From Candidatus Bathyarchaeum sp. (GTDB taxonomy: Archaea; Thermoproteota; Bathyarchaeia; Bathyarchaeales; Bathyarchaeaceae): 5,167 nucleotides of DNA. Under the pieces are notes generated by a model that saw only the letters and a list, made by a program, of their open reading frames with translations, was not told the DNA's origin and ran no database searches. Position 1 is the stretch's first letter, and every line of letters begins with the position of its first letter. Shown here in pieces: positions 271 to 4,428 of the stretch. The translations under genes and the position numbers were made by a program. Location: assembly GCA_003096255.1 (NCBI GenBank), contig PIXS01000180.1:1-5167 (forward strand). Direction: 5' to 3'.

Positions 271-315
271 GTCAAAATCTAAGAAATGTTTTGGCGGAAA
301 AAATCTGGGCGGGTA

Positions 316-343
316 TAGAATGCTGTTATAGCTTTCTACCGAA
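316..343 (+). other. tRNA-Arg intron 1, 28 nt, tRNA position 9/10
   Basis: It lies between TA (positions 8-9) and the D-stem GCC. It folds as AGAA (317-320) against TTCT (334-337), then GCT (322-324) against AGC (330-332), with loop GTTAT. The central helix pairs acceptor CGG (310-312) with intron CCG (339-341), plus a G-A mismatch. Three-nt bulges TA|T (314-316) and AA|G (342-344) place both cuts. Because A315 and A343 are identical, the edges could shift by one base (315-342) without changing the mature tRNA. Confidence 0.8.
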
Positions 344-365
344 GCCTAGCTTGGACAGGGCACGA

Positions 366-387
366 ACAGCACAAAATGCTGATGTAT
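366..387 (+). other. tRNA-Arg intron 2, 22 nt, tRNA position 29/30
   Basis: It splits the 5' strand of the anticodon stem. The intron hairpin is perfect: CAGCA (367-371), loop CAAAA, TGCTG (377-381). The central helix GCAC (360-363) with ATGT (382-385) has a G-U pair, two Watson-Crick pairs and one C-A mismatch. The outer helix is AGG (357-359) with CCT (389-391). The bulges GA|A (364-366) and AT|G (386-388) put the cuts exactly where the mature anticodon stem requires them. Confidence 0.85.
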
Positions 388-395
388 GCCTCCTA

Positions 396-412
396 ACAGG
401 GAACTGGGAGCG
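396..412 (+). other. tRNA-Arg intron 3, 17 nt, canonical position 37/38
   Basis: This is a textbook BHB of near-minimal size. The inner helix is CAG (397-399), tetraloop GGAA, CTG (404-406). The four-bp central helix is exon CTCC (390-393) with intron GGAG (407-410). The three-nt bulges are TA|A (394-396) and CG|A (411-413). Outer pairs are GC (388-389) with GC (414-415). All elements are Watson-Crick. Cleavage leaves A395 joined to A413 and yields loop CTCCTAA. Confidence 0.92.
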
Positions 413-513
413 AGCTCGGGGTCACGGGTTCGAGTCCCGTCCCGCCCGCCACCAAAAACACAATGTTCTTTGAAAAAAGTGCCAGAAAAGTTGTTGAACG
501 CAAAAACGTGGGT

Positions 514-1005
514 TTATTTTAGTTTAATGCTTAGCCAGCCTCTTCCGCCTCTTTTTTGTTGCTGACCATTTTTTGGAATCTTTTTAGGCGGAACATATCT
601 GCTTGCCCGGGTTGTGGTTTTCTGGTTGCGTATGTTAGTCCTAATGAATTTGCCCCATCCGCCTATAGTGGAATTTGGAGGAATGACCTTTTCTGTGTCA
701 AGTTCAAGGTACTCTTTTACGATGTCAAAGAACTCCAGAGGCTTGAAGTCTCTTGTTGCCATAATCACTGTTCCTTGCTCGACAAACAGTTTTGAATAGT
801 CATGTTTGGCTATGCCTTCTGCTCTTACCTTGTCTTCTACCCTATTTCGCCAAAGGTTTTTCCAGTCAGTTCTTAATTCGTCAACGAACTCTTTCATGTT
901 GTTTGTCGCCATTTTTTGTTCCTCCATGCACTTGCGGAGCCGGTTGGCTTCTTTTTGGTGCTTGAGTTTCTTGCTGCTCTTTATTTTTCGTAAATATAAA
1001 GACAT
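514..1005 (-). CDS. hypothetical basic protein, 163 aa
   Basis: I do not recognise this family. The protein is strongly charged and soluble, with no signal peptide or membrane segment. Residues 1-65 look like a continuous charged amphipathic helix rich in Lys, Arg and Glu. Residues 70-115 look like a small folded core (KLFVEQGTVIMATRDF, then EFFDIVKEYL). Residues 118-163 form a basic, Gly/Gln-rich tail ending WLSIKLK, which suggests nucleic-acid contact, though that is only inference. The ATG at 1005 fits a TATA-like box at 1041-1050. An alternative ATG at 912 has a GGAGG eight bases upstream (921-925) and would give 132 aa. I keep the longer form because codons for residues 10-26 are GC-rich at third positions, unlike nearby spacer. 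It faces tRNA-Arg convergently with a 62-bp gap. Confidence 0.7.
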   Translation of the reverse strand: MSLYLRKIKSSKKLKHQKEANRLRKCMEEQKMATNNMKEFVDELRTDWKNLWRNRVEDKVRAEGIAKHDYSKLFVEQGTVIMATRDFKPLEFFDIVKEYLELDTEKVIPPNSTIGGWGKFIRTNIRNQKTTTRASRYVPPKKIPKNGQQQKRGGRGWLSIKLK

Positions 1006-1494: not shown

Positions 1495-2580
1495 TTGACA
1501 TCTGATTCACTGAAACTGTTCGCCAAGCTGTTCATCATAGTCATAGCGATTTTCATGATTTCATTTTATCTCTTCATAGTTTTTCTGGAGCCAGCACTGT
1601 ACTATTTCACGCCTGATGGAGTAAACGCCACCACAGTCAACTTTTCAAACCCTTTGACACTGTGGATTCTAAACATGCCATTACGCGTTTACACAGGACT
1701 AAACCTAGGCGCAATCTTCTTTGGGCTTTGGATCGCCTTTGCTGCATCCTTTGTTGTGGCTTGGAAACTTAGAAAAAGCCTTCCCAAAGTAATCAAAGAA
1801 AGTGTTCACAAACCCACAAGGAAACTTTTTAGCAACTGCCTCTTTGCAATGCCCTTCATAAACAGCATGACATTACTTGTGGTCATGATAATCCAGAGCA
1901 TTCAAGAAACTGGAGGAATCCCAACAGGAACTGCTCCATCCCAAGGAGATATGTTTCTGGTTCTTTTTGATCGGTCATATGCCTCCGTGATCGAGGAGAT
2001 AGGTTTCAGGCTTATCCCTATCGGAGCGTTTCTCATTTTCATGTTCATGATGAAGAAAGAAGCTTGGGAGTTTTCTTTGAAGCAGAAAATCAAGCTCTTC
2101 TTTGCAGGGTTACTGTTTCCTGACACAGCTAAAAGAATGGTTGGGGCAAAAACTGTGGAAGAGCATGGATTGAAGGATGGAATCAGTTTAGGTGAGTGGG
2201 GTGTGGTAGTTTTTACGGCAGTGATTTTTGGTTTGGCTCACTATAACCCCGGAGTCAGTTGGGAAATCGGAAAAATCAGTTCTGCCGCCTTTACAGGTCT
2301 GGTTCTTGGTTTAGTTTATCTGGTTTATGGCATTCAAGCTTCCATAATCATGCATTGGTTCTTTAACGTCTACTCAACCACATTTGTCCTCATTTCAGAC
2401 ATGTATCCAGCCACGGCGCCCTTTGTTGATGCAATATGGATGATCACTTTAGCAGTAGGAATAATCGGATTGGTGGCAATAGCAAACATGGGAGTCCTTA
2501 AACTAATTACAGCCATCGAAAAAAGAGGCAAAAATAAGCAGAACCAATCTACTTTGAGCCAGCAAGTATCTCCTCTGTGA
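1495..2580 (+). CDS. CPBP (Abi/Rce1-like) intramembrane metalloprotease family protein, 361 aa
   Basis: All three CPBP motifs are intact: EExxxR at E167-E168-R172, FxxxH at F245-H249, and HxxxN at H287-N291. In this family the Glu and His residues lie inside the membrane; in Rce1 they cleave CAAX prenylproteins. Archaeal members mostly have unknown substrates. Roughly eight hydrophobic segments are visible, near residues 12-30, 68-90, 114-134, 155-185, 236-250, 263-283, 284-300 and 313-337. A 30-residue insert (about 195-235) with charged stretches separates motifs 1 and 2. The tail from 343 is Lys/Gln-rich and probably cytoplasmic. The start is TTG with CGGAG (1481-1485) nine bases upstream; the next Met is residue 21, inside the first membrane helix, so TTG is preferred. 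The 3' end overlaps hisS by 32 bp. Confidence 0.9.
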   Translation: MTSDSLKLFAKLFIIVIAIFMISFYLFIVFLEPALYYFTPDGVNATTVNFSNPLTLWILNMPLRVYTGLNLGAIFFGLWIAFAASFVVAWKLRKSLPKVIKESVHKPTRKLFSNCLFAMPFINSMTLLVVMIIQSIQETGGIPTGTAPSQGDMFLVLFDRSYASVIEEIGFRLIPIGAFLIFMFMMKKEAWEFSLKQKIKLFFAGLLFPDTAKRMVGAKTVEEHGLKDGISLGEWGVVVFTAVIFGLAHYNPGVSWEIGKISSAAFTGLVLGLVYLVYGIQASIIMHWFFNVYSTTFVLISDMYPATAPFVDAIWMITLAVGIIGLVAIANMGVLKLITAIEKRGKNKQNQSTLSQQVSPL

Positions 2581-3858: not shown

Positions 3859-4428
3859 CTATTTTAGATTAAGTTCTGAAAGAGAGTAGTAAACGATTTC
3901 TCCTCTTCGGTTAATAACTGCGAGGATCAGATTTTTTTTCAGGTTCTGGACGTAACGTTGGGTTCTTGCCAGCTTCTCTAAAGTGACGGGCTGTCCCTCT
4001 TGTATACCGAATATGAGGTGCTTGGCTGTTTCTCTGCCATAGTCTCCCCGTTCGTAGACTCGAAAGTCAATTCCTAAGCCGAAGCCTTCCCGCGCCACGT
4101 ATCCGCGACCGCGTAGGTCCCTGTAGATGAGGTATCTGACCCAGACGTCTTTGTCAACTTGCTGGAAACGTTTTAGGAGTTCCTGAAAAGCCACCTTCTT
4201 TTTAGTTTTTTTGTCCGTAACTGTGATTGCCTTTTTTCCTAACAGGAGTAGGGCTTCATAGAGCGTGAGGAGCAGTTTGCCATCCTCTTCTGTACCATAA
4301 CCTTTTGACGAGAACTCTTGGATTCCCTCTGGTGACGAGATTGTAACAACCGTTTCTTTAAGAGAAGCGCCCACAGGCAGTATCTCTTGGCTTTTCTCAG
4401 CTTCAGCCTCTGATTTCTTTGACACCAA
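3859..4428 (-). CDS. endA: tRNA-splicing endonuclease EndA family protein, 189 aa
   Basis: EndA cuts the bulges of BHB motifs in precursor tRNAs to release introns. The C-terminal nuclease core is clear: YLIYRDLRGRGYVAREG (99-115), GIDFRVYERG (119-128), then NLKKNLILAVI (162-172) and GEIVYY (176-181). Compared with Methanocaldococcus jannaschii EndA (catalytic Tyr115, His125, Lys156, recalled from memory), Tyr125 and Lys165 are present. The His position falls on Thr134, in RETAKHLI against KEHSVYLV; a His occurs three residues later (His137). The length of about 180-190 fits the subunit of the alpha4 or (alpha-beta)2 forms. The loss may mark a structural subunit paired with a catalytic copy elsewhere. 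The first codon is TTG. The next codon, GTG at 4423-4425, has AAAGG five bases upstream and may be the true start. A charged, low-complexity N-terminus (1-18) precedes the fold. Confidence 0.9.
   Translation of the reverse strand: MVSKKSEAEAEKSQEILPVGASLKETVVTISSPEGIQEFSSKGYGTEEDGKLLLTLYEALLLLGKKAITVTDKKTKKKVAFQELLKRFQQVDKDVWVRYLIYRDLRGRGYVAREGFGLGIDFRVYERGDYGRETAKHLIFGIQEGQPVTLEKLARTQRYVQNLKKNLILAVINRRGEIVYYSLSELNLK

Follow-up and report, generated by a model that had tools for sequence, protein, structure and literature searches.

A tRNA-Arg(CCU) gene with three introns in Bathyarchaeia, and an upstream copy of the acceptor strand that accompanies its 9/10 intron

How can a stretch of DNA that folds into no valid cloverleaf encode a tRNA? 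The window analysed here, 5,167 nt of contig PIXS01000180.1 from Candidatus Bathyarchaeum sp., raises this question at positions 307-451 of the forward strand, where the original prediction had placed a tRNA-Arg(CCU) gene that makes no valid cloverleaf in its raw form and carries three introns of 28, 22 and 17 nt. ARAGORN found no tRNA in the raw window, and Rfam gave only a sub-threshold match at 307-448, of the size of a T arm (423-440). When segments 316-343, 366-387 and 396-412 were removed by script, ARAGORN reported tRNA-Arg(cct) with a full cloverleaf on the joined exons, 75 nt long or 78 nt with CCA, which bears out the proposed identity. The gene occupies 307-448 of the forward strand, and CCA, as read from the sequence, is encoded at 449-451. 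Exon 1 (307-315) comprises the 5′ strand of the acceptor stem (307-313), U8 and A9; exon 2 (344-365) the D arm, N26 and the first 3 nt of the anticodon stem; exon 3 (388-395) the rest of the 5′ anticodon stem, the anticodon CCU (392-394) and position 37; and exon 4 (413-448) everything from position 38 to the discriminator G73. All the parts are collinear within 307-451, which rules out a permuted or split tRNA. The cloverleaf is complete, as had been claimed, except that the stems were said to be fully paired throughout and one of the four D-stem pairs is a G.U.

The exons and introns can be read off natural alleles of the same gene. The HisRS encoded in the window is 80% identical to that of the Bathyarchaeum MAG L001 and, over residues 1-333, 91% identical to that of L006, and on a HisRS tree the window stands beside G006 (support 99/99); by these sequences it is a member of Bathyarchaeia near Bathyarchaeum. 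All three introns occur at the same sites in ten relatives (G001-G007, G055, G056, G057). Other genomes carry subsets of them: introns 9/10 and 29/30 (G008, G067), 9/10 and 37/38 (G058), 9/10 alone (G146, G154, G194, G012, G070, together with the tRNA-Arg(CCG) gene of G039) or 37/38 alone (G145, G147, G198), and G011 and many more genomes carry none. Intron 29/30 alone, or with 37/38, was not seen among the relatives compared. The 28-nt intron 1 (316-343, position 9/10) is absent from L038, L052, L054 and others, the 22-nt intron 2 (366-387, position 29/30) from L038, L042, L053 and others, and the 17-nt intron 3 (396-412, the canonical position 37/38) from G008 (L037) and G067 (L043), both of which have the other two. 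The intronless L038 of G011 has the same exon 1 and differs from the predicted mature tRNA of the window at 6 of 75 positions without a gap, and the predicted mature tRNAs of seven genes form the same stems although their introns differ. Since an allele without the intron exists at every site, each junction is fixed at the position originally proposed; and because the sites recur in ten genomes alongside such alleles, a chance origin of the three introns is excluded. The structure, junctions and conservation of the gene are thus established by comparison of sequences.

It could still be argued that the gene is dead, a decayed tRNA-Arg(CCU) that retains its insertions while another tRNA has taken over its job, and the mismatch in the 29/30 splice motif of the window described below would suit such a reading. 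The mature stems, however, are preserved in six triple-intron genes after joining of their exons, and in the other five as judged by eye; paired changes occur inside the introns; and a tRNA-Arg(CCU) pattern run on the ten triple-intron relatives matched a single gene in each (10/10), being a strict pattern that a divergent second copy could escape. We therefore regard a dead gene as very improbable. The codon AGG is used in the window, at 9 of the 1427 codons of six ORFs. It is very likely that the locus is a functional tRNA-Arg(CCU) gene whose transcript would lose three BHB-type introns, at 9/10, 29/30 and 37/38, through cuts by a two-subunit endonuclease followed by ligation, a judgement that does not extend to the role of the leader discussed below. 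Transcription, cutting and ligation of the precursor are inferred here from the known archaeal pathway.

The original prediction had assigned a BHB-like fold to each intron. We placed the helices by hand with standard geometry and counted over distinct introns; as a control, 3′ arms were swapped among genes in 2000 trials, a re-dealing that ignores the relatedness of the genes. In the inner helix of the 9/10 motif, 66 of 68 cells were paired (17 distinct introns), and in that of the 29/30 motif all 44 were (11 distinct introns); re-dealing reached either figure in 0 of 2000 trials. The 37/38 inner helix, with 14 of 24 cells paired (8 distinct introns) and 114 of 2000 trials reaching that number, is weak in several relatives. 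In the window itself the fold stands in full for the 37/38 intron, whose BHB motif is complete by hand placement. At 29/30 it is interrupted by one C.A, at a place where the other 10 of the 11 distinct introns pair. The 9/10 motif is only a relaxed BHB, because in 16 of 17 distinct introns a G.A leaves its central helix with three pairs; only G012 forms the complete set of four. By hand folding, a cut one base earlier at intron 2 would unpair the anticodon stem at U387.

A shift by one base deserves more attention at intron 1, where a cut at 8/9 (removing 315-342) would leave the same mature tRNA in the window, A315 and A343 both being A. The unconstrained fold of the window does contain a shifted helix with U8 paired to A338, and position 9 is C or U in 9 of 21 intronless genes with the acceptor sequence GGGCCCG. 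On the other hand, the intron ends in C in 4 of 20 genes (G005, G007, G008, G067) and in G in 2 of 20, so that an 8/9 cut would alter position 9 in these genes, while A9 is found in all 34 intronless genes that share the acceptor GGGCGGG; the four central pairs of G012 are also formed in the 9/10 register. The argument from base 9 appears good but not absolute, because it is distant genes with the other acceptor that have C or U there, and we consider the 8/9 cut unlikely. A phylum-wide test with a pattern for 9/10 introns was too loose, mostly matching ordinary intronless 5′ ends with one mismatch, and was set aside.

The window also encodes a candidate for the enzyme that would remove these introns. 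A tRNA splicing endonuclease subunit, with PF01974 and PF02778 both over the cut-off, lies at 3859-4428 on the reverse strand and adjoins the HisRS gene; its best solved relatives by sequence are archaeal tRNA splicing endonucleases. Aligned to 1a79, it has Thr opposite the His of KEHSVYL, which we take to be the catalytic His, and this substitution would fit a structural subunit. Two PF01974 genes were found in each of 14 of the 15 relatives searched, and one in G154; the second gene of the relatives keeps Tyr, His and Lys at the expected places, as judged by eye. Two-subunit splicing endonucleases are linked to non-canonical introns in the excerpts consulted of PMC4090602 and PMC4033280. The gene pair fits the two-subunit type, the assembly and specificity of the enzyme being putative. 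Such an endonuclease would cut the three BHB-type introns from the tRNA-Arg(CCU) precursor, and the exons would then be ligated.

Genes of this kind are best known from other archaea, among them the hyperthermophiles of the genus Pyrobaculum. The original prediction had called triple-intron tRNA genes rare and best documented in Thermoproteales. According to the portions consulted of the reviews and of the tRNAscan-SE 2.0 paper, a tRNA gene of archaea can carry as many as three introns, multi-intron genes occur mostly in Pyrobaculum and Thermofilum, and the mean in Thermoproteales is given as 0.84 introns per tRNA gene. Excerpts of PMC4390854 and PMC4090602 describe triple-intron tRNA-Glu(UUC) in P. 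calidifontis and tRNA-Pro(UGG) in P. islandicum. These genes share with ours the number of introns, one canonical and two non-canonical in P. islandicum; they differ in isotype and, in P. islandicum, in intron positions (25/26 and 56/57), and the same excerpts mention no leader copy. A parallel to the variation among relatives is the tRNA-Thr(GGU) of Caldiarchaeum, whose intron number also varies at one gene locus with a mobile element nearby; as far as the excerpt of PMC3293823 goes, it has one versus two introns within one population, whereas tRNA-Arg(CCU) has three introns in combinations that change across the class. In the tRNA-intron literature, as represented by the excerpts consulted, Bathyarchaeota appeared only by name in a footnote of PMC7714728, and PMC9793634 matched by terms only. 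The triple-intron tRNA-Arg(CCU) thus belongs to an established type of gene, here met in a further lineage and documented by an evolutionary series of unusual clarity; such genes may already be listed in public tRNA databases. From its range of intron combinations one can read directly how tRNA introns are gained and lost. Triple-intron tRNAs are now found in a class with a cultivated mesophile, Bathyarchaeum tardum (gene L034, genome G003), which according to parts of PMC10477458 grows at 10-45 °C with an optimum of 37 °C, so that the order of splicing could be studied at moderate temperature. The words 'tRNA' and 'intron' are absent from the main text of that paper.

One feature of the gene had no place in the original prediction. 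At 293-297 of the forward strand, at the presumed start of transcription, stands GGCGG, a sequence match to the 5′ strand of the acceptor stem; this leader copy, whose role is inferred, accompanies the 9/10 intron. An exact copy of at least 5 nt of the gene's own acceptor strand, no more than 30 nt before G1, precedes 18 of the 19 genes with a 9/10 intron, which were picked by intron and acceptor sequence and not by leader, and 1 of the 67 tRNA-Arg(CCU) genes without it (Fisher 2e-16, uncorrected for kinship). The nineteenth, G012, has TGACGGG, matching at 5 of 7 positions. Outside the 19 stand G070, found later through the leader pattern, and a broken tRNA copy of G142 (L104) that is preceded by a GGGCCGGG run. 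The set of 67, to which G011 contributes two genes, excludes 23 parsed rows of other isotypes or tRNA genes as well as L144 and L050; 34 of its members have the acceptor GGGCGGG, and the only positive, L044 of G110, is among these 34. Base-shuffled leaders of the 19 genes reached 5 nt in 1829 of 38000 trials. Among the 30 tRNA loci selected by T arm in the single contig of G004, of which 29 were parsed, a 5-nt copy occurs in 1 of 28 and a 6-nt copy in 0 of 28 besides Arg(CCU). The reverse search, GGCGGG(2-10)GGGCGGGTA, matched in 28 of 256 genomes of the class; 19 places lay at tRNA genes, 17 of them with a 9/10 intron and the other two in G110 and G167, although these are largely the same genes as in the first count and do not make an independent test. 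In G167 (L229) a GGCGGG run stands directly before the acceptor strand of an apparent tRNA gene without the 9/10 intron, a possible counter-example to the rule.

A phylum-wide search for the leader pattern gave 17 places in 16 of 398 genomes, of which 7 are known Bathyarchaeia genes and 2 (the second place in G402 and the one in G442) stood outside the reading. Seven new loci had no T arm within 160 nt, and the place in G179 does not resemble a tRNA.

A TATA-like box, TTATAA, at 263-268 of the forward strand, a presumed promoter element, ends 24 nt before the copy in the window; in 18 of the 19 genes with a 9/10 intron such a box precedes the copy by 23-27 nt, and three genes have a second candidate. 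The distance from copy to G1 varies from 10 to 16 nt. From box to G1 the distance is 36-47 nt with the intron (box found in 19 of 20 genes), and without it 23-35 nt in 41 of the 53 genes, out of 67, in which a box was found, 11 lying above 35 and one at 18; the scan took the farthest candidate within 18-50 nt under a broad box pattern, and these distances are pattern matches rather than mapped starts. Because the spacing from box to copy is steady and that from box to G1 is longer with the intron, the copy probably lies at the 5′ end of the transcript.

Could the upstream copy be the real acceptor strand, with a correspondingly larger intron? In 7 of 20 genes it reads GGGCGGG without a mismatch. 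Nevertheless it starts with U rather than G in 13 of 20, is followed by the U that position 8 requires in only 6 of 20, and in intronless genes it is the downstream strand that runs on into U8-A9, which leaves this reading hardly credible.

We tentatively propose, at somewhat less than even chances, that the leader acts in cis as a splicing helper. The splice motif at 9/10 uses the 5′ strand of the acceptor stem. A precursor transcript beginning with a copy of this strand would pair the copy with the 3′ acceptor strand, and the true 5′ strand, thus freed, would build the 9/10 motif; leader and intron would be gained and lost together. The model was evaluated by partition-function folds of 20 precursors at 37 °C, with pairing above 0.5 as the criterion. 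In intact precursors the acceptor 5′ strand pairs with intron 1 and exon 2 in 18 of 20 and with the 3′ acceptor strand in none, and pairing between leader and 3′ strand passes the criterion in 14 of 20; in the precursor of the window the pairing of 3′ strand and leader reaches 0.25, and that on the splice-motif side 0.69. Replacing the copy with A/T left the splice-motif side in 1 of 20 and brought the 3′ acceptor strand to 12 of 20. Scrambling the copy alone had a weak effect (12 of 20 and 0 of 20, respectively) because a shuffled 7-nt GGGCGGG stays G-rich. Scrambling the whole leader also destroys bases -1 and -2, so the replacement of the copy alone is the cleaner test. In 16 of the 20 genes that have the 9/10 intron, and in 13 of the 67 that lack it, these two bases lengthen the outer helix through N14 and N15; changing only them to A gave 13 of 20 on the splice-motif side and 2 of 20 for the 3′ acceptor strand. 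In a forced comparison, the spliceable fold lay above the native-acceptor fold by a mean of 1.3 kcal/mol with the leader and 10.8 kcal/mol without it.

It is also quite conceivable, though short of probable, that the copy is a mere scar, left as a duplicated 5′ end when the 9/10 intron was inserted, with no part in splicing. This would account for L044 of G110, which has the copy without the intron, for the similar run of G167 (L229), and for copies that have shrunk to 5 nt in the window and in G006 or contain mismatches in G012. It also gains from the behaviour of the model after splicing: when only intron 1 is taken out, pairing of the 3′ strand with the leader persists (0.28-1.00), and its pairing with the true 5′ strand does not exceed 0.02 in any of the 20 precursors. 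The fold does not switch back, and the true stem would therefore need RNase P, tertiary structure or proteins. Against a scar, the copy has been kept at distances from G1 that range from 10 to 16 nt; it is absent from G144 and G153, which lack the intron and are close relatives of G110 and G154; and once it is replaced in silico, the splice-motif side exceeds 0.5 in only 1 of 20 genes, compared with 18 before.

The number of independent contrasts, only three, likewise suits a scar. A HisRS tree of 28 rows, from which G056, G194, G070 and G142 were left out and in which the HisRS of G039 is distant and long-branched, requires at least 4 changes for the 9/10 intron, 5 for the leader, 3 for the 29/30 intron and 6 for the 37/38 intron. 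Leader and 9/10 intron go together in all three independent pairs on its well-supported branches, for nearly every random pairing (sign test p 0.25); over all branches there are four pairs. The association thus appears striking in count and weak in independent events.

Leaders that help splicing are known from split and permuted tRNA precursors, where, according to excerpts of PMC3218864 and PMC4033280, they base-pair and help to form the BHB; in Thermofilum pendens such tRNAs were revealed by an unusual distance from promoter to tRNA. The tRNA-Arg(CCU) gene differs in being contiguous and collinear, and its leader, similar to the 5′ strand of the acceptor stem, has the 3′ strand as its predicted pairing partner. 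Nothing like this arrangement was found in the openly accessible part of the literature on tRNA leaders and acceptor stems, as far as the excerpts consulted go, and a leader copy tied to the 9/10 intron is a feature that we have not met before. If functional, it would account for the presence of an intron at a site whose splice motif itself consumes a strand of the acceptor stem, and a stand-in acceptor strand within a tRNA precursor would represent a novel way of assisting the fold needed for splicing.

Several further observations concern the same tRNA family. The pair of intron and copy is not confined to Arg(CCU): L090 of G039, a tRNA-Arg(CCG) gene, has a 9/10 intron of 44 nt together with a leader copy free of mismatches. 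In G142 (L176, G142:C62:1-13500), 13 kb separate a truncated tRNA-Arg(CCU) with a 9/10 intron (236 to about 305) from a complete copy without introns (13105-13179); this interval contains an archaeal phage integrase gene (PF16795) and, by eye, integrase-like pieces stand beside both tRNA genes. G142 may be a mixed assembly. A lone 3′ half of tRNA-Arg(CCU) stands at about 10870-10909 of L012. The gene may serve as an integration site in the class, which could bear on intron loss. In L073-L075, L077-L080, L087 and L100 the anticodon loop of tRNA-Arg(CCU) is CCCCTAA, with C at position 33 in place of the U that is, to our knowledge, near-universal in tRNAs.

Within the window, the neighbouring tRNA-Leu had been described as interrupted in its D loop. 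A tRNA-Leu(UAA) at 15-131 on the reverse strand indeed requires an intron within the D loop or close to it, and the arrangement recurs in L001-L004 and L007, the last with a further insertion after the anticodon. Three ORFs, at 514-1005 (reverse strand), 1169-1396 and 1495-2580 (both forward), have no Pfam match at E 0.001; the last resembles a multi-pass membrane protein by eye. Many tRNA genes of G004 (L108-L137) carry introns, and two of them, L121 and L133, which span 143 and 152 nt, probably hold several introns each.
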